A DNA stretch of 64,000 nt from Chloroflexota bacterium (GTDB lineage: Bacteria; Chloroflexota; Anaerolineae; Anaerolineales; UBA11579), in contig VRUJ01000013.1 of NCBI GenBank assembly GCA_019456165.1, positions 1-64,000 on the forward strand. The letters are read 5' to 3'. This document shows, piece by piece, positions 55,316 through 63,904 of the stretch. Positions within the stretch are counted from its first letter, which is position 1. Each line of letters starts with the position of its first letter. Both the position numbers and the translations under genes were made by a program. The notes beneath the pieces were generated by a model. It worked only from the letters and a program-made list of their open reading frames with translations. It searched no databases and had not been told where the DNA came from.

Positions 55316-57294
55316 AACGATGTTGCTTCCTCAAGGTTTGGGGAATATGTTGGTTCCACCAATGGGATACGGGCCAGGACAGTCGTACCTTGGCCAGATT
55401 GAGATTCAACTGTAAATATTCCTCCTAGTAACTCTACCCGCTCCTGCATACTATGTATACCCAGGTGTTTTGTTCCTGTACCATATTTTAGTTGCTCCAG
55501 GTTGTCAAAGCCGATCCCATCATCATCAACAATCACGATTATTTGCTTATCTTGCTTTTCCAACATAATGGAGATGTTGTTTGCTTCTGCGTGACGGGCA
55601 GCATTTGTAAGGGCCTCTTGAATCAATCTATAGGCGGTCAATTCCACCTGAGATCCCAGCCGTTCATCTTCTAGCCCTAAAGTTTGTATGTCCACATGCA
55701 GGGAGGTGTGACTCGCAAAATGACTGGAAAATTGTTGTATGGCTGCAATTAGGCCTAATTCATCAAGTGCAGGTGGGTGCAACTCGGTTGCTAAATCATG
55801 AAGATTGACCTGGATTTGACCCACCAGATCACGGAGGGCCTGTAATTGAGCGTATGCTTTGGATGGTTCCGACTGTTTCTCCAAACTGCGAAGTCTAAAC
55901 TTGAGGGAAGTCAGAGCCTGCCCAGCTTCGTCGTGAAGCTCACGGGCGAGGCGTTGGCGTTCTGTTTCTTGGGTGGTAATGATCTTTTCTAGTAGTTGAC
56001 CTCGTAATACTTCTTTCTCTTTTAACTCCTCCCACAGGCGGGCATTTTCTGTGGCAACTCCGATTTGCCTCCCAATGGAATCCAACAAAGCTAGGTCATC
56101 TCGATTGTAAGTGCGTGATTTGCGGCTAGCGACGTTAAGGACTCCAATCACCCGATCCCGAGAGATCAAGGGAACGCTAACATGGCAGGCTAACCCTTCG
56201 GATGCAATAATTTCCGGGTTGATGTGTTTGCATTCTTTCGAGATGTCATTTACAACCATGGGGGTTACAGTATGCAAGACCTGAGTGCAAATGCACTTTT
56301 CAAACCCATGGTTTGTCTCGGCGAGTATAAAGGCTTGTGATAAACCTGCCTTTACTGTTAGTTGAAAGTTGGCAGGATGAATTGGGTTTTCTAAGAATAT
56401 CCAACCAGCTTGTAATTCCATCACTTCTAACACTTTATCTAATGCAGCTTGTAACATTTGTCGTAATCCCAAGGTGCTACTGATAGCAGTTGCAGTAGCG
56501 TTAAGGGTAGCAAGTTCTCGCAACTTTCGGATAAGGTCAGAGTGGGAGGCTTGCAGATTTTCGGTCATCGCATTGAAGGCGTGTGCCAACTCACCGATTT
56601 CATCCGCCATGCGTGGGTAGGCTCGGGTTTCTAGATCACCCTGACCCACACGGCGGGAAACTTCTACTAAATCAAGCACCGGGCGCGTTAGAACGCGGGT
56701 AAGCAATAGAGCGATAAACGTACCAATGAGCATGGCGATTGCGGTGATGGAGAGGAGTTGCCAGGTAGCTTGAGTAACCTCACTATCCATGCGGGTTAAA
56801 GAGAGACCCACTCGAGCTACTCCTGCCTGGTCCTCAAAAATGGGAACTGCAAAATCTATCATCCTCCCCTCATTAGTATCGAAGAGTAATAAATTATAGC
56901 TCTCCGTTGCATCTGGCCAATTGAGCGATAACAAATCCTTAGGAACAGTCTGGGGGAAAGAGTGGACAATGGCTTGTTGGTAGGCATCCTGCACGAGGGC
57001 GTAACGCACATCGAGGTTGTTTTCAAGAGTGTCGCGCACTAATTGATATAAAGCAAAGGTATTGTCGGTCAATACAATATTCGTAGACCGGGCTGCTAAA
57101 TCGCGAGCGATAGCAACACCACGTTCTTCCAGACTACTGGTAAGGTCATCGGCAAGCCGGGCACGTACTGCTAGGGTCATCGCTAGGCCTATTACCAATA
57201 CTGCACCCAAAACCATACCGATAATTTTTGTGCGGATTGGTACTCCAGTGATACGTTGGAATAACCAATTGCCGGGATACTCAAGGGTTTTCAT
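55312..57294 (-). CDS. NarX-type sensor histidine kinase with HAMP and GAF
   Basis: About 660 residues from ATG 57294 (MKTLEYPGNW), which has GAGG seven bases upstream; an ATG at 57336 gives 14 more residues. Layout: helix (about 22-42), extracytoplasmic region (about 43-175), helix (about 178-198), HAMP (about 200-255), GAF (about 285-430), HisKA_3 with the H box RLARELHDEAGQALTSLKFRLRSLE, and HATPase_c (EALTNAARHAEANNI, VDDDGIGFD). This is the NarX/LiaS class that pairs with NarL-type regulators. It overlaps the PhnD-like gene by 14 bases; the pair may form a split version of TtrS-type sensors, where the PhnD domain is fused to the kinase. Confidence 0.92.
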   Translation of the reverse strand: MKTLEYPGNWLFQRITGVPIRTKIIGMVLGAVLVIGLAMTLAVRARLADDLTSSLEERGVAIARDLAARSTNIVLTDNTFALYQLVRDTLENNLDVRYALVQDAYQQAIVHSFPQTVPKDLLSLNWPDATESYNLLLFDTNEGRMIDFAVPIFEDQAGVARVGLSLTRMDSEVTQATWQLLSITAIAMLIGTFIALLLTRVLTRPVLDLVEVSRRVGQGDLETRAYPRMADEIGELAHAFNAMTENLQASHSDLIRKLRELATLNATATAISSTLGLRQMLQAALDKVLEVMELQAGWIFLENPIHPANFQLTVKAGLSQAFILAETNHGFEKCICTQVLHTVTPMVVNDISKECKHINPEIIASEGLACHVSVPLISRDRVIGVLNVASRKSRTYNRDDLALLDSIGRQIGVATENARLWEELKEKEVLRGQLLEKIITTQETERQRLARELHDEAGQALTSLKFRLRSLEKQSEPSKAYAQLQALRDLVGQIQVNLHDLATELHPPALDELGLIAAIQQFSSHFASHTSLHVDIQTLGLEDERLGSQVELTAYRLIQEALTNAARHAEANNISIMLEKQDKQIIVIVDDDGIGFDNLEQLKYGTGTKHLGIHSMQERVELLGGIFTVESQSGQGTTVLARIPLVEPTYSPNLEEATSL

Positions 57295-58195
57295 CCCAAC
57301 CTCGTAATGTGGCAGCCATCTCGCGAAGGCTTTCATAAGCTGAAATATCGATTTCTACAAAACGCTCAATATGCAACTTTTCTAGCGCTGCTCGTCCTTC
57401 AAGATCTCTGTCCATCCTAAGAAGGATCTCGAGTAAGACTGCGCGCAAGTCAGGCTCAATATCGGGATGGACTACTACTGGAGGGATACCATAAGGCCCT
57501 AACCTGTCTATGATGCGAATCTGTGAGATCAATGGTGAGGATTCTGCTGCAAGAAAATCGTACACTAGACTATCGACTGCTGCACCATCGACCAGGCGGT
57601 CTGCTACTGCTTGGATCGAATTGTCATGACTGTAGGTATAGGTTGTGTTTTCGAAAAAATCATCGGCGGTTTCATCCATTTGCGAAAGCATCCAGAGAGG
57701 CGCTAAATGGCCAGAGTTGGAAAGTGGATCGGAGAAGGCAAAAGTTGTATCGCGTAAATCATCAATTGTCTGAGCCTGGCTTATGCTTGGGACGATGATG
57801 TAAGAATAGTATGTTGTCTCTCCGTTCACCTGTGGAGCGACCAGCAGTTGCATGCCAAAGTTGCGCTCTCCCTCAACATATGCTCCACCACAGACAAACG
57901 CTAAATCTACTGCTCCGGAGCGGACGAGCTCGTTGGTTTCAGCATATGTGCCTCGCTGAATTAATTCAACTGGCCGATCTAAATGTGAAGATAGATAGTC
58001 TAAAAGAAGGCCGTAACTCTCTAAAGTTGCGCGAGGAGAAATAACAGCAGCAATAGCCACCCGCAATGGAAGACGGGAAGGTTCTCCTAATTCTGGGGCA
58101 GCAGCAGTATCTCCTTCCTGGACAAGCTCTACGTAAGGCAGATCCTCTGAATTAGCACAGGCAATAGCAAAGATTAGGATACCTACTGCCAACAA
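57281..58195 (-). CDS. PhnD-like substrate-binding lipoprotein, 5' end fused to IS remnant
   Basis: A 304-residue PhnD/TtrS-N type periplasmic binding protein (LRVAIAAVISPRATLESYGLLLDYLSSHL, LVRSGAVDLAFVCGGAYVEG, FAFSDPLSNSGHLAPLWMLSQ). A lipobox (FAIAC) is near residue 13. The only available start is TTG at 58195, which lies in sequence shared with the IS remnant at 44871; no ATG/GTG is in frame, and the basic n-region of the signal peptide is missing. The original 5' end was therefore probably replaced by IS sequence. A 9-codon frame from the IS (ATG 58213, RBS AAGGAG) ends across the TTG and might couple translation. The product would sense an oxyanion for the coupled kinase. Confidence 0.82.
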   Translation of the reverse strand: MLAVGILIFAIACANSEDLPYVELVQEGDTAAAPELGEPSRLPLRVAIAAVISPRATLESYGLLLDYLSSHLDRPVELIQRGTYAETNELVRSGAVDLAFVCGGAYVEGERNFGMQLLVAPQVNGETTYYSYIIVPSISQAQTIDDLRDTTFAFSDPLSNSGHLAPLWMLSQMDETADDFFENTTYTYSHDNSIQAVADRLVDGAAVDSLVYDFLAAESSPLISQIRIIDRLGPYGIPPVVVHPDIEPDLRAVLLEILLRMDRDLEGRAALEKLHIERFVEIDISAYESLREMAATLRGWDENP

Positions 58196-58296
58196 TCTTG
58201 TTGATAGGTCATGTGTAACTCCTTTTTTATTTTTGCAACTAAAAGGATACCTGACCTATCATTTTTTGGAAATTACAGAAACAATGTTACACTAAC
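58192..58296 (-). mobile_element. IS left-end remnant joined to the PhnD-like gene
   Basis: Reading the minus strand from 58296, 105 bp align with 44871-44975: GTTAGTGT, then ATTGTTTCTGTAATT, TAGGTCAGGTATCC and GAGTTACACATGACCTATCAA, then AAGATTGT, after which homology stops and PhnD-like coding sequence begins. The transposase-type ATG (58213) and its ribosome site AAGGAG are retained, but the frame ends after nine codons. Its outer terminus faces the histidine operon. It is a deletion-derived scar of the same element as at 44.9 kb. Confidence 0.8.
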
Positions 58297-58376
58297 AACG
58301 AAAAGGTTACTAATGCGGTGGTAATCATTACGTTACCTTGCCAGCTCACAATCACTATGATAGAATTCCCGCTAAT

Positions 58377-58478
58377 ATGAAATACAGCAATCAGTCTTGC
58401 AAACATCATCATACTCATGCTCATCCAACCAGCTTCACATCTGGGCAAGACTGCTTTAAGGAGATCTGCATTCACTAA
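58377..58478 (+). CDS. Histidine operon leader peptide (attenuator)
   Basis: A 33-codon frame reads MKYSNQSCKHHHTHAHPTS and continues to a final His codon and TAA. Five of seven codons at 58404-58424 are CAT, and CAC is the last sense codon. It lies 80 nt upstream of hisG and is followed by an intrinsic terminator at 58515-58541. This is the layout of leader-peptide attenuation in proteobacterial his operons: scarcity of charged tRNA-His stalls the ribosome and prevents the terminator from forming. No strong ribosome site is visible upstream of the ATG, which is the main doubt. Confidence 0.75.
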   Translation: MKYSNQSCKHHHTHAHPTSFTSGQDCFKEICIH

Positions 58479-58514
58479 GAAAATTATTTAATTGCAGAAT
58501 TTAGATTTTCAAGG

Positions 58515-58541
58515 CGCTTCCCGGTTGGGAGGCGTTTTTTT
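58515..58541 (+). terminator. Attenuator terminator before hisG
   Basis: CGCTTCCC (58515-58522) pairs with GGGAGGCG (58527-58534) around GGTT, followed directly by TTTTTTT. It lies between the His-rich leader peptide and the hisG ribosome site (AGGAG at 58547). Because it precedes the first gene of a biosynthetic operon on the same strand, it must be regulated rather than constitutive. Confidence 0.88.
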
Positions 58542-58557
58542 ATTTTAGGAGTTTATT

Positions 58558-59562
58558 ATGGAAAGAAAATATCGAAATATAAGAATCGCCCTACCAAGCA
58601 AAGGGCTATTGGCGGAAAGGAGCAAAGACCTCTTGGCAAACGTGGGTTATAAGGTTCACAATCCCAATCCGCGCCAATATAAGGCTTCCATTCCCAGACT
58701 ACCGGGTGTTGAAGTTATCTTTCAACGCCCTGGCGATATTGTTGTCAGCGTGAGAGATGGGAGCGTAGATTTTGGTATCACGGGGCGAGACATTTTTCTG
58801 GAGAAACGGGAATCCAACGGCAACATTCTAGAACTACATAGCCAACTAGGATTTGGTCATTGTTCACTAAATGTAATCGTTCCAGAGAGTTGGAGTGATA
58901 TTTGCCAACTCGAAGATTTATCAAAATTACACAACATGTTGAAGCGCCCATTAAAAATTGCCTCCAAATTCCCATATTTAACGAATCAATTCTTTCAAGC
59001 GGTTAACAATTTGGAAATTGAAATCATTCAAGCAGAGGGAGCGTTAGAGATCGCGCCAACGGTTGGCTATGCCGATCTAATCGTTGATCTTGTTTCCACG
59101 GGCACTACCCTCAGGGATAATCGACTAAAGATTTTAGAAAGCGGCGAGATATTGAAATCCCAGGCTTGTCTAATTGCCAATAAAGCTTGCCTTAAATCGA
59201 ATCCTAAAACCCTCGAACTTGCCAAAAAACTAATTGAATTGATCGGCGCGCATTTGAGAGCTAACAACAATTTAGCAATCTTCGCCAATGTTCGCGGCGA
59301 TTCACCAGAAAGCATTGCGCAGAAAATTTTCCAACAAAATGTGATCAGTGGTTTACAAGGGCCAACCATTTCTCAAATTATCACTAAGCAAAATGAAAAG
59401 TGGTATGCCATCCATCTAGTTGTTCAAAAAAACCATCTTCACCAAGCTATTCGAGAAATCCGTGAAGTAGGAGGAAGCGGTGTGGTTGTCTCCCCAGTAA
59501 ATTATATTTTCGAAGAAGAACCCCCAGAACTGATACAAATGCTCGCGGCCCTGGAGGATTAA
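58558..59562 (+). CDS. hisG: ATP phosphoribosyltransferase, long form
   Basis: A 334-residue HisG. IRIALPSKGLLAERSKDLLANVGY opens the catalytic domain; VDFGITGRDIFLE and the PRPP loop DLIVDLVSTGTTLRDN (about residue 180) follow. The length and the C-terminal ACT-like region (about 245-334, VVQKNHLHQAIREIREVGGSGVVVSP) show the long form that is feedback inhibited by histidine and needs no HisZ. It catalyses the first committed step, ATP + PRPP to phosphoribosyl-ATP. It is the first structural gene of the operon, behind the leader peptide and terminator. Confidence 0.95.
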   Translation: MERKYRNIRIALPSKGLLAERSKDLLANVGYKVHNPNPRQYKASIPRLPGVEVIFQRPGDIVVSVRDGSVDFGITGRDIFLEKRESNGNILELHSQLGFGHCSLNVIVPESWSDICQLEDLSKLHNMLKRPLKIASKFPYLTNQFFQAVNNLEIEIIQAEGALEIAPTVGYADLIVDLVSTGTTLRDNRLKILESGEILKSQACLIANKACLKSNPKTLELAKKLIELIGAHLRANNNLAIFANVRGDSPESIAQKIFQQNVISGLQGPTISQIITKQNEKWYAIHLVVQKNHLHQAIREIREVGGSGVVVSPVNYIFEEEPPELIQMLAALED

Positions 59563-59566
59563 GTAA

Positions 59567-60886
59567 ATGATTAAGATTTATGCAGTCGAAGAAGCCAATT
59601 CAACGATACTCAAACGCAAACCTTTGCACCTGGACGATTTTGCCCCTACAACCATCAAGCGAACAGAAGCTATTTTTGGGGCTGATGTAACACCCCCGCA
59701 AGCTGTAGAGAAAATTCTCAAATCAATTAACAAGGATGGTGATAATTCGGTCAGACATTGGTCAAAAACCATCGATAATTTTGAAGATGAGCGCTTCTCC
59801 ATTTCAAAAGAAGAAATTGTAGAAGCTTATAACCAGCTTCCACAAAAGACGAGAGATGTAATGGAAGCATCTGCCAAGCGCATCGGCTCTTTTCATGAGA
59901 ACCAACCCATCGGCACCTGGATGGTCAATGATATGGATGGCAGCCTGGGACAGCGCTTCTCACCAATTGAAAGCGTAGGGGTTTATGTACCCGGTGGGAC
60001 CGCGCCATTACCATCATCTTTGTTAATGAGTGTCATTCCGGCTCAGGTGGCTGGCGTAAAGAAAATTGTTGTATGTACACCGCCACAACCGCATCCATCT
60101 ATCCTCGCGGCGGCTTTCATCTGTGGGGTTGATAAAATTTATCAAGTTGGGGGCGCGCAGGCAATTGCCGCGATGGCCTTTGGCACAGAAACAATCCCCC
60201 GGGTTGATAAAATTGTGGGGGCCGGAAATTTGTTTGTTACTTTAGCCAAACAGCAGCTTTACGGCATTGTAGGTCTTGATGGCTTGGCAGGTCCAACTGA
60301 AACCATGGTAATTGCAGATGCAACGGCAAACCCGAAATGGATCGCCGCAGACTTATTAGCTCAAGCAGAGCACGATGTCCAAGCCAGCGCTATCTTGCTA
60401 ACCCCAGATATTGCATTAGCGGAGGGTGTAAAATCCGAGATTGACAAACAACTCTCCTTCCTCTCACGAAACAATATCATTTGCGTTTCGCTTGAAATTA
60501 AGGGAGGGATAGTGTTGGTCAATTCAATTGATCAAGCCGCAGAAATAGCGAATGAATATGCTGCTGAGCATCTTTGCCTTTCAGTGGTAAAGCCGGAAGC
60601 TTTGATGGAAAAAATCAATAATGCTGGCGGATTCTTCCTTGGAGAACACTCGTTTGAAGTTCTGGGAGATTACATTGCTGGCCCCAGCCATGTCATGCCT
60701 ACCGGGGGCACAGCCCGTTTTTCCTCTCCGCTAAACGTGCTTGATTTTGTTAAGCTGTCAAGTGTGATTGCCCTAGATCCCAAAACAGCGGCCAAACTAA
60801 GCCCTATCGCTGCAAGCTTTGCGGAAACTGAGCAGCTTACCGCCCATGTAGCGGCAGCCAGAGCGCGCCTTGAGGGAAACAAATGA
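59567..60886 (+). CDS. hisD: Histidinol dehydrogenase
   Basis: A 439-residue enzyme performing the last two oxidations, L-histidinol to L-histidine with two NAD. Signatures: VGVYVPGGTAPLPSSLLMSVIPAQVAGVK, QVGGAQAIAAMAFGTETIP, the zinc-binding LLAQAEHDVQASA (Gln and His) and EVLGDYIAGPSHVMPTGGTARF. It starts 4 bases after hisG and overlaps hisC by four bases. The N-terminal 25 residues are slightly longer than usual (a second in-frame ATG is absent). Confidence 0.96.
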   Translation: MIKIYAVEEANSTILKRKPLHLDDFAPTTIKRTEAIFGADVTPPQAVEKILKSINKDGDNSVRHWSKTIDNFEDERFSISKEEIVEAYNQLPQKTRDVMEASAKRIGSFHENQPIGTWMVNDMDGSLGQRFSPIESVGVYVPGGTAPLPSSLLMSVIPAQVAGVKKIVVCTPPQPHPSILAAAFICGVDKIYQVGGAQAIAAMAFGTETIPRVDKIVGAGNLFVTLAKQQLYGIVGLDGLAGPTETMVIADATANPKWIAADLLAQAEHDVQASAILLTPDIALAEGVKSEIDKQLSFLSRNNIICVSLEIKGGIVLVNSIDQAAEIANEYAAEHLCLSVVKPEALMEKINNAGGFFLGEHSFEVLGDYIAGPSHVMPTGGTARFSSPLNVLDFVKLSSVIALDPKTAAKLSPIAASFAETEQLTAHVAAARARLEGNK

Positions 60887-61980
60887 TCTCTGACATCAAC
60901 ACCTTCATTCGACCAAATCTTATGAATATGCCTGATTACAAACCAATCTATCCACTTGATGTTATTGCTGACAATTTGGGAATTCCTCAAGATCAACTTA
61001 TCAAGCTCGATGCCAACGAAAATCCGTTTGGTCCACTCACTGAAGTTTTAGAGATAACCGGGCTCCTGCAAAACGCACATATCTACCCCGACCCTGAAAG
61101 TCGTCGAGTGCGAGCATTGTTAGCTGAATATCATCAAGTTTCAGAACAATCCACTGTTTTAGGAGCTGGAGCGGACGAGTTGATCGATTTGGTTATGCGG
61201 CTGGTAATTGACCCAGGAGACAGGCTTCTAAATTGCCCACCCACCTTCGGCATGTACAGTTTTGACGCGAGTGTAAATCAAGCCAAAGTCATTAATGTGC
61301 CTCGCCTATCCGATTTTTCATTAGATATCGCTGGAATGGAGCATGCAATTCAGGAACATCAACCCAAGCTGATATTCTTGGCAAACCCGAATAACCCAGA
61401 TGGCAAATTGATTCCTCCAGAAATTATCAAAGCATTATTGGCGCATCCCCTATTGGTTGTTTTGGATGAAGCCTATATTAATTTCAGCGCAGCAGAAAAT
61501 GATTGGATTCAAAAGGTTTCTGAATATGACAATCTGATCGTTTTGCGTACCTTAAGCAAATGGGCTGGGTTGGCTGGGCTGCGGATCGGTTATGGGATTT
61601 TCCCAGAAAATTTTGTCCCCGCGCTTATGAAAGCAAAGCAGCCCTATAATGTATCCGTGGCAGCACAAGAGGCTGCCTGTGTTTCCCTACTAAATATTGA
61701 ACAACTTAACCAAAATACCACAAGCATCATCCTGGAACGGCAACGGTTGTTTGAGAAACTCTCCAAAATTTCCTGGTTAATGCCCTATCCCTCATCTGCC
61801 AATTTTATTTTATGCAAAGTAACTGGGAAAAATGCCCAGGATGTAAACCAACGCTTGAGAAAGAAAGGCATCCTGATCCGACATTTTAATAAACCAGGTT
61901 TAGAGGACCATATCCGGATCAGTGTCGGCAAACCTGAACATACAGATCAGTTGGTCGACGTTTTAGAACAGATGGAGTAA
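60883..61980 (+). CDS. hisC: Histidinol-phosphate aminotransferase
   Basis: A 365-residue class I/II PLP aminotransferase. KLDANENPFGPLTEV near the N-terminus, FLANPNNPDGKLIP (Asn contact), VLDEAYINF (Asp/Tyr) and the Schiff-base Lys in RTLSKWAGLAGLRIGYG (about residue 228) identify HisC. It converts imidazole acetol phosphate and glutamate to histidinol phosphate. The ATG overlaps the hisD TGA (ATGA); the start has about 16 residues before the usual MPDYKPIYP beginning, so an internal ATG could also be used. Confidence 0.95.
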   Translation: MISDINTFIRPNLMNMPDYKPIYPLDVIADNLGIPQDQLIKLDANENPFGPLTEVLEITGLLQNAHIYPDPESRRVRALLAEYHQVSEQSTVLGAGADELIDLVMRLVIDPGDRLLNCPPTFGMYSFDASVNQAKVINVPRLSDFSLDIAGMEHAIQEHQPKLIFLANPNNPDGKLIPPEIIKALLAHPLLVVLDEAYINFSAAENDWIQKVSEYDNLIVLRTLSKWAGLAGLRIGYGIFPENFVPALMKAKQPYNVSVAAQEAACVSLLNIEQLNQNTTSIILERQRLFEKLSKISWLMPYPSSANFILCKVTGKNAQDVNQRLRKKGILIRHFNKPGLEDHIRISVGKPEHTDQLVDVLEQME

Positions 61981-61983
61981 ACG

Positions 61984-62574
61984 ATGAGAAAAGCTGAAAT
62001 TTCAAGAACAACCAACGAGACAAAAATTAAGGTAGCATTAAACTTGGACGGTACAGGGAGAGCACAGATCAATACCGGGATTGGCTTTTTTGATCATATG
62101 CTAACCCAGATCGCCGTACATGGCCTTTTTGACATCACCCTTGAGGCTGAAGGCGATTTACATATTGATCCACATCATACCATTGAGGATTGTGGTTTGA
62201 TCCTCGGGGAAACATTCAGTCAGGCTTTGGAAGATCGCCAGGGGATTGCGCGGATGGCTTCTGTCTTTGTGCCTATGGATGAGGCTCTTGGACATGTAGC
62301 GCTAGATCTCTCCGGGCGTCCGTATACCGTGATTTCAGCGCTATGGACTGCGCCAACGGTTGGCAATATTCCCACCTCCCTACTTGAACACTTTTTCGAA
62401 TCTTTTGCCATAACTTGTCGTTGTGCCTTGCACGCCCGAATACTCTACGGGAAAGATAACCATCATATGAGCGAAGCCCTCTTCAAAGCGTTTGGCAGGG
62501 CATTGAATACAGCAACTCGGATTGATGCCAGGCGTTTAGACCAAATTCCGAGCTCGAAAGGAAATCTTGTATGA
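61984..62574 (+). CDS. hisB: Imidazoleglycerol-phosphate dehydratase
   Basis: A 196-residue monofunctional HisB (no N-terminal phosphatase). Metal-binding repeats are present: GIGFFDHMLTQIAVHGLFDI, HIDPHHTIEDCGLILGE and KDNHHMSEALFKAFGRAL. It dehydrates imidazole glycerol phosphate to imidazole acetol phosphate. It starts 3 bases after hisC and overlaps hisH by four bases. Confidence 0.96.
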   Translation: MRKAEISRTTNETKIKVALNLDGTGRAQINTGIGFFDHMLTQIAVHGLFDITLEAEGDLHIDPHHTIEDCGLILGETFSQALEDRQGIARMASVFVPMDEALGHVALDLSGRPYTVISALWTAPTVGNIPTSLLEHFFESFAITCRCALHARILYGKDNHHMSEALFKAFGRALNTATRIDARRLDQIPSSKGNLV

Positions 62575-63179
62575 TTGTCATTATTGATTATGGTGCAGGA
62601 AATTTGCACTCGGTAAAAAAGGCCGTTGAGTTTGTCGGTGGACAGGCAAATGTGACTAACGATCCCTCAAAGATTATGGGCGCAGATAAAGTGATCTTGC
62701 CAGGGGTAGGGGCTTTTAAAGACGGCCTAGATGGGCTGCAAGCGCGCAATCTAATTATTGTGATCAAAGATTATGCTGCCACCGGAAAACCTCTTCTAGG
62801 AATCTGCCTGGGAATGCAATTGCTTTTTGAAGAAAGTAAAGAGCAAGGAGTTCATCCAGGCTTGGGGTTGCTGCCAGGCCAAGTTGTACCATTCACAGAC
62901 ACCTCGCTGAAAATTCCCCAAATTGGATGGAACACTCTCTCCATAAACAAAGAAGCTCCACTTTTTTCTGGCCTCCGCACTGGCGATTATGTTTATTTTA
63001 ATCACACTTTTTATTGTTGCCCCCAAGAACACGAAGATACCCTCACATCTACAGAGTATGGAATTTCTTTTTCTTCCGCCGTCAACCGCAGCAACATTTA
63101 TGGTGTGCAATTCCATCCAGAAAAAAGCCAGAAGATTGGACTAAAAATATTACAAAACTTTGTGGAGCGAATATCATGA
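62571..63179 (+). CDS. hisH: Imidazole glycerol phosphate synthase, glutamine amidotransferase subunit
   Basis: A 202-residue class I amidotransferase. IIDYGAGNLHSVKKAVEFVG, ILPGVGAFKDGL, nucleophile Cys in LLGICLGMQLLFEES, and the His-Glu pair in IYGVQFHPEKSQ are complete. It releases ammonia from glutamine and channels it to HisF. The start overlaps the end of hisB and the end overlaps the start of hisA. Confidence 0.96.
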   Translation: MIVIIDYGAGNLHSVKKAVEFVGGQANVTNDPSKIMGADKVILPGVGAFKDGLDGLQARNLIIVIKDYAATGKPLLGICLGMQLLFEESKEQGVHPGLGLLPGQVVPFTDTSLKIPQIGWNTLSINKEAPLFSGLRTGDYVYFNHTFYCCPQEHEDTLTSTEYGISFSSAVNRSNIYGVQFHPEKSQKIGLKILQNFVERIS

Positions 63180-63904
63180 CAAGATTGATGATCTACCCTG
63201 CGATTGATCTACGCAGCGGGAAAGTGGTCAGGCTTAAGCAAGGTGATCCTGCTGCCCAAAAAATCTACAGCGATGATGCCGTGCAAATCGCGGAAACCTG
63301 GATCAATGCTGGGGCAGAGTGGCTCCACATTGTCAATCTTGACGGCGCATTAGGCAGTAAAACTGAAGCTAATTGGAATGCAATAAATAAGGTCCTTAAA
63401 AACTTTGGTAACGGCGTATCAGTTCAACTTGGGGGCGGGCTTCGTGATCTGGCTGTTATTCAAAAAACACTTGAAGCAGGAGTGGCGCGCGTTGTTCTAG
63501 GTACAGCCGCGATCGAACGCAAAGAGTTTGCAGCCCAGGCATTAGATAAATTTGGACCAGATAAAATTGCCTTTGGTCTGGATGCAAAAAATGGAGAATT
63601 GATGACTCGGGGTTGGAAAATCAGCTCTGGACAAACAACCATAGAATTTGCCAATGATTTAGCGGATATGGGCGCAAAAACCATAATCTACACCAACATA
63701 GCTACAGATGGTATGGGGACAGGAAATGATTTTGAGACCGCCAGTCAAATCGCTCAAACAACGAGGCTGGAAGTGATTGCTTCAGGTGGCGTGGCATCCA
63801 TTGAAGATGTAAAAAATGTCAAAGCGGCGGGCCTCCGCGGGTTGATCATCGGACGGGCGTTATACGAAAATCAAATCACCTTGCAGGAGGCCCTTGCATG
63901 TTAA
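63176..63904 (+). CDS. hisA: ProFAR isomerase (phosphoribosylformimino-AICAR-P isomerase)
   Basis: A 242-residue TIM barrel starting at ATG 63176 ([20 protein letters not shown]), which overlaps the hisH stop; the open frame extends upstream to 63014 but that part lies inside hisH and is not HisA. Catalytic Asp in [10 protein letters not shown] and the second in [15 protein letters not shown], with phosphate-binding VQLGGGLR and VIASGGVAS, are all present. It isomerises ProFAR to PRFAR, the HisF substrate. The stop overlaps hisF by seven bases. Confidence 0.96.

Follow-up and report, generated by a model that had tools for sequence, protein, structure and literature searches.

What does a histidine-rich frame of 33 codons, preceded by no good ribosome-binding site, do directly ahead of the histidine biosynthesis genes of a bacterium? 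The locus lies in a 64,000-nt stretch of DNA analysed at its full length (hereafter the window) from a genome of 3.8 Mb. The initial annotation, made from the letters alone, saw here a his operon attenuator in a Chloroflexota-like genome. The host was named rightly, as the relatives in the same family belong to Anaerolineales (class Anaerolineae), and the attenuator reading is supported by the run of His codons, the terminator and native pairings that exceed partner-swapped ones. The region is interpreted here as a ribosome-mediated his transcription attenuator whose leader peptide is probably encoded on a leaderless or nearly leaderless mRNA, a reading given a probability of roughly 0.87. Sequence and comparison together establish the His run, the spacing of the promoter, the absence of a Shine-Dalgarno (SD) site, the terminator and the alternative pairings on which this reading is built (Table 1).

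Table 1. Features of the his leader region and the downstream operon (window positions).
Feature	Position	Strand	Description
Promoter	58338..58366	+	TTGCCA (58338-58343), 17-nt spacer, extended -10 TGATAGAAT (58358-58366)
Predicted transcription start (A)	58374	+	Inferred; 3 nt ahead of leader ATG
Leader peptide ORF	58377..58478	+	33 codons and TAA, MKYSNQSCKHHHTHAHPTSFTSGQDCFKEICIH; no Shine-Dalgarno site
Segment 1 (CAGTCTTGC)	58392..58400	+	5' arm of protector/pause hairpin; just ahead of the His codons
Regulatory His codons CAT CAT CAT ACT CAT GCT CAT	58404..58424	+	From reading of the frame and shuffle test
Segment 2 (within GGGCAAGACTGCTTTAAG)	58441..58457	+	Pairs with segment 1 or segment 3
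Hairpin between segments 2 and 3	58464..58506	+	From folding; joins both in the predicted antiterminator
Segment 3	58511..58524	+	Terminator 5' arm (58511-58522) and 2 loop bases; alternative partner of segment 2
Intrinsic terminator	58511..58545	+	Stem 58511-58522 / 58527-58538, then T tail
hisG	58558..59562	+	334 aa, long form; PF01634 match; own Shine-Dalgarno site; first gene of the controlled operon
hisD, hisC, hisB, hisH, hisA	59567..63904	+	Downstream operon genes; named by recognising their translations

The leader frame described in the initial annotation, with five CAT codons in seven and a terminal CAC, was confirmed at 58377-58478. The run, which begins at 58404, reads H-H-H-T-H-A-H, and CAC is the final sense codon ahead of TAA. 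Among 2000 dinucleotide shuffles of the intergenic region (58196-58557), none produced a frame with five His codons in seven and 151 produced one with three in seven. The 177-nt leader RNA folds more strongly than all 200 of its shuffles (z -3.0). Behind the leader, the genes follow in the order hisG-D-C-B-H-A, and the gene upstream of the leader region (57281-58195) runs divergently and so cannot be what the terminator ends.

Loss of the His run at homologous loci had been set beforehand as a refutation test, for which hisG loci were collected from related genomes. A search of 61 genomes found hisG in 31, the window's own genome included, and 30 of these gave loci; a further 80 came from named genomes, among them the cultured Pelolinea submarina MO-CFX1 and Thermanaerothrix daxensis GNS-1. 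Removal of three exact duplicates from these 110 loci left 107, and since some genomes occur in both collections, with 10 near-identical pairs, merging by a common 51-mer reduced them to 97 clusters. The genomes in which hisG was not found (30 of 61) include near-complete small ones (2.2-2.4 Mb), and histidine auxotrophy is possible in this part of the family.

With a leader defined as a short frame carrying at least three His codons in seven, the run is kept in 104 of the 107 loci (Anaerolineales, Anaerolineae) and in 94 of the 97 clusters. By the same definition, the antisense strand gave a frame at 10 of 107 loci and shuffled sequence at a mean of 12.7 of 107 (20 shuffles), while a threshold of at least four in seven gave 86 sense, 0 antisense and 0.9 shuffled frames among 107. 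Within the seven-codon windows, CAT (272) and CAC (122) interchange, whereas CAA (11) and CAG (1), just as close in sequence, seldom occur, which indicates selection for histidine and hence for translation. Three loci are without the leader: L020 has another gene directly upstream, L029 has a terminator-like hairpin but no His run, and L080 lies on a contig titled Alphaproteobacteria with upstream DNA that looks like coding sequence. Both L080 and L074 (contig titled Zixiibacteriota) encode a HisG of the Anaerolineales lineage, through either misbinning or transfer, and L074 carries the same type of leader as the Anaerolineales loci.

The lack of a good ribosome site, which the initial annotation had listed as the visible weakness of the frame, is real: the duplex with the anti-SD sequence has an energy of +0.2 kcal/mol at the leader start and -6.8 at that of hisG. 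It can be explained by a message that starts almost at the leader start codon. The -10 hexamer TAGAAT (58361-58366) belongs to a promoter with 10 of 12 consensus matches and a TG extension, and it ends 10 nt ahead of the leader ATG at 58377. Counting 7 nt past the hexamer leads to 58373-58374, and an A is present at -3 in 58 of 92 homologues, giving a predicted 5' UTR of about 3 nt. A promoter this close to the leader start predicts a leaderless leader mRNA.

This arrangement recurs among the relatives. In the 92 leaders of the non-redundant set (of the 104), anchored on the start codon with no other alignment or optimisation, the profile displays TTG at -39 to -37, TG at -19, TAnAAT at -16 to -11 and A at -3. 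The -10 box of the best-scoring promoter ends 7-14 nt ahead of the nearest leader ATG in 77 of 92 loci, compared with a mean of 4.95 and a maximum of 8 of 92 in shuffles; 11 more loci fit the same spacing from another in-frame start, bringing the total to 88 by a looser, after-the-fact criterion. Of the 92 leaders, 2 have SD pairing; the share is 20% at random positions, and 81 of 91 hisG starts carry it. The lack of a ribosome site is a conserved property of these leaders, in keeping with the predicted leaderless mRNA. Leaderless initiation is not general in the window: of its 51 frames with 150 aa or more, five have a promoter score above 9 at the leaderless position, where the leader scores 14.3, while 39 carry an SD site at one of their first starts. 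One survey covered 12 Chloroflexi genomes and predicted leaderless genes in 4 of them, with a share of about 4.7% of genes (PMC3160421).

The intrinsic terminator claimed between the leader and hisG was found at 58511-58538 (AAGGCGCTTCCC-GGTT-GGGAGGCGTTTT, followed by the T tail), with hisG beginning at 58558. It is present in 89 of the 92 non-redundant loci, with a median energy of -18.7. The distance from the terminator to the hisG hit is mostly 15-50 nt, with 150-200 nt in L012, L034, L056 and L073; the extra DNA in L012 resembles a dispersed repeat.

Folding predicts two mutually exclusive partners for segment 2. Segment 1, located where a stalled ribosome would sit, pairs with 58445-58453 at -15.1 kcal/mol (the 1:2 protector), and the 2:3 duplex (58441-58457 with 58511-58524) has an energy of -13.1 kcal/mol and excludes the terminator. 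When the window was folded with the ribosome at the first His codon, the RNA beneath it being left out, and with the 3' arm of the terminator absent, the antiterminator was predicted (-24.8). Once the RNA is complete and the ribosome still stalled, the terminator state is favoured (-33.1 vs -24.8 for the antiterminator). The model therefore depends on kinetics, like known attenuators. An alternative structure that sequesters the terminator arm, whose absence was the other refutation test, is present in the window and in 81 of the 89 homologues, where upstream RNA engages half or more of the 5' arm (mean fraction 0.74 vs 0.48 with shuffled upstream sequence). Compared with shuffles, the antiterminator has a modest energy advantage, with z averaging -1.67 and falling below -1 in 55 of 89 loci; several loci have none.

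Stronger discrimination came from swapping pairing partners between species. For the 2:3 pairing, native partners averaged -14.3 vs -12.2 when swapped (sd 0.24), and for 1:2 the values were -19.7 vs -14.7 (sd 0.34), with 0 of 5000 permutations reaching the native value in either case; a control segment in this test displayed no difference between native and swapped partners. In 28 loci thinned by the terminator arm, a step that removes relatedness partly, both pairings again gave 0 of 5000. Segment 2 is common to both pairings in 79 of 89 loci. The geometry is more variable. A ribosome halted at the first His codon would cover 80% or more of segment 1 in only 65 of 89 loci. Measured from the end of segment 2, the stop codon falls between -20 and +15 nt in 62 of 89; in the window, the leader stop lies 18 nt beyond segment 2. 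In 15 of 92 loci, which are the nearer relatives of the window, segment 2 carries the motif RGNYYGYTTWA (within GGGCARGAYTGCTTTAA). Its frame relative to the leader is 0, 1 and 2 in 6, 4 and 5 loci, respectively, which indicates that it is kept as nucleotides and not as peptide. Overall, the elements that characterise an attenuator were found together: a His-codon ORF, an intrinsic terminator, and mutually exclusive pairings identified by both prediction and partner swap.

The mechanism that we infer from this arrangement would link the start site to leader translation, ribosome stalling and a histidine response as follows. Transcription would begin about 3 nt ahead of the leader ATG, and a ribosome would load straight onto the 5' end of the message. 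When charged His-tRNA is scarce, the ribosome would stall on the CAT run and cover segment 1; segments 2 and 3 could then pair as the antiterminator, and RNA polymerase would proceed into hisGDCBHA. When His-tRNA is plentiful or the leader is untranslated, segment 2 would be covered or bound to segment 1, and with segment 2 occupied, segments 3 and 4 would make the terminator.

Other readings account for parts of this evidence. A his attenuator with an ordinary led leader mRNA, in which transcription starts further upstream and the leader has a weak or non-SD ribosome site, is unlikely. It would fit the 15 of 92 loci whose best promoter lies outside 7-14 nt of the nearest ATG, four of which match no in-frame leader start at that spacing, but it is at odds with the promoter elements that emerge in the unoptimised ATG-anchored profile (TTG at -39, TG at -19 and TAnAAT at -16 to -11) and with SD-like pairing that is rarer at the leaders (2 of 92) than at random positions (20%), while hisG starts commonly have it (81 of 91). 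Even less probable is that the His frame is merely a small ORF, chance or ordinary, followed by an ordinary terminator of something upstream, a reading that the comparison refutes. Chance alone does yield frames with three His codons in seven in roughly 10% of regions of this kind, but a run kept in 94 of 97 clusters excludes it, and the upstream gene is divergent, leaving nothing upstream for the terminator to end.

A genuine RNA switch that answers to another signal, such as a T-box, a His riboswitch or a protein-bound antiterminator, with the His frame incidental, is very improbable. The strongly conserved nucleotide motif of segment 2, present in 15 of 92 loci in all three frames, would suit such a switch, but it is accounted for by the two pairing partners of the segment. 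The His run, moreover, adjoins segment 1 and is conserved at the codon level with its third base free to be C or T. T-boxes, riboswitches and other known RNA families were rejected as candidates, as the window region has no Rfam match at threshold. Neither the His_leader nor the T-box covariance model matched at gathering score in the window region or in 20 related loci, and these 20 loci contain no leader-type family. The sole Rfam match among them is a SAM riboswitch (RF00162) in L189 (39-234, minus strand; 71.6 bits vs a gathering score of 44.4), which lies on the opposite strand upstream of hisG.

The leaderless his attenuator appears to have a restricted distribution. Outside the order, 80 hisG loci were picked among the matches listed, aiming at different families. 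In other orders of the class, a His-run frame was detected upstream of 12 of 37 long-form hisG genes (antisense 6 of 37), and seven of those 12 (L179, L182, L186, L187, L189, L191 and L202) exhibit the full promoter-ATG-run layout by eye. In other classes, the frame was found in 2 of 43 loci (antisense 10 of 43), of which L209 is doubtful, and short-form hisG loci of the class and the phylum gave 3 of 59 (antisense 8), of which L166 is ambiguous. The frames in L209 (HRHHHHH) and L166 (HHHH) are isolated short frames upstream of hisG in other Chloroflexota classes, without the promoter-ATG layout, and represent either chance or independent attenuators. The hisG matches of other orders are of two sorts, one strong and often in frames of ~210-300 aa, the other weaker and mostly ~330-400 aa; the leader accompanies the ~330-400 aa sort, like that of the window. 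Judged from these comparisons, the feature is concentrated in the order, and the device serves his mainly in Anaerolineales and in some orders close to it.

Nor does it seem to belong to a general style of amino-acid attenuation. No Trp-rich ATG leader was found upstream of 8 trpE loci of relatives, and upstream of 11 ilvB loci there was no convincing Ile/Leu/Val-rich leader, with two chance-like frames; the scan covered the stronger matches of both families, as opposed to weaker paralogues. The window's own genome has no trpE match. In several genomes, leuA lies just downstream of ilvB in the same stretch.

Among known systems, the closest in layout is the his operon attenuator of Escherichia coli and Salmonella (His_leader, Rfam family RF00514). 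Both have a leader with His codons and mutually exclusive protector, antiterminator and terminator hairpins ahead of the his operon. The enterobacterial hisL has a 5' UTR and a ribosome site. The Anaerolineales device differs in that the window has no Rfam match at threshold, the leader is predicted to be leaderless and the phylum is another. Leaderless short ORFs with polycysteine runs are reportedly described in mycobacteria by Canestrari in 2020. According to a review, such ORFs regulate the translation of downstream genes (PMC9031893). As outlined there, they resemble the leader studied here, itself leaderless by prediction, in being short ORFs in which a run of one codon senses its own amino acid for a downstream operon; they differ in sensing cysteine, in acting at the level of translation and in phylum, whereas the his device has an intrinsic terminator.

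The ilvBNC attenuator of Corynebacterium glutamicum is described as having three hairpins and a transcript that starts a single nucleotide away from the leader's start codon (PMC11857589). On this description, it shares with the predicted Anaerolineales device a leaderless leader peptide within a transcription attenuator, but it senses branched-chain amino acids, controls another operon and belongs to Actinobacteria. Candidate his attenuators, identified by comparison only, have been proposed in the Bacillus cereus group, Peptostreptococcaceae and Erysipelotrichales (PMC9413887). Like the leader studied here, they are presented as having three to five His codons together with a terminator and an antiterminator; they differ in phylum, being Firmicutes, and their description makes no mention of leaderless leaders and names Chloroflexi only in the title of a reference. 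For bacilli, an earlier terminator survey includes a His leader that belongs to paralogues of hisS (PMC2965389). The actinobacterial candidates set out in another study concern genes for Trp, Cys and branched-chain amino acids, and no His candidate was seen among them (PMC1262725). In the open-licence literature, no description of leader-peptide attenuation in Chloroflexi or Anaerolineae, or of a leaderless His leader, was found, and a subscription paper may exist. The parts are each known, and their combination and the host group appear to be new. The comparison suggests that the Anaerolineales device arose within this lineage or close to it, separately from the his attenuators of enterobacteria and Firmicutes.

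This reading would extend translation-coupled attenuation of histidine synthesis to Chloroflexota and supply some 90 natural cases where the sensing step would be leaderless initiation. Promoter, start codon, sensor codons and terminator fit into about 200 nt; the design is therefore portable and would offer a clean test of whether leaderless initiation improves the coupling of the first ribosome with RNA polymerase. The leaders also represent leaderless small ORFs that annotation easily misses, and they supply a search rule for other lineages, namely a -10 box 7-14 nt before an ATG, a codon run and a terminator. For the organisms themselves, it is quite probable that the whole order Anaerolineales controls histidine synthesis by a leaderless-leader attenuator, in which the 5' end of the mRNA would itself be the ribosome entry site and the first ribosome would load as the RNA leaves the polymerase.
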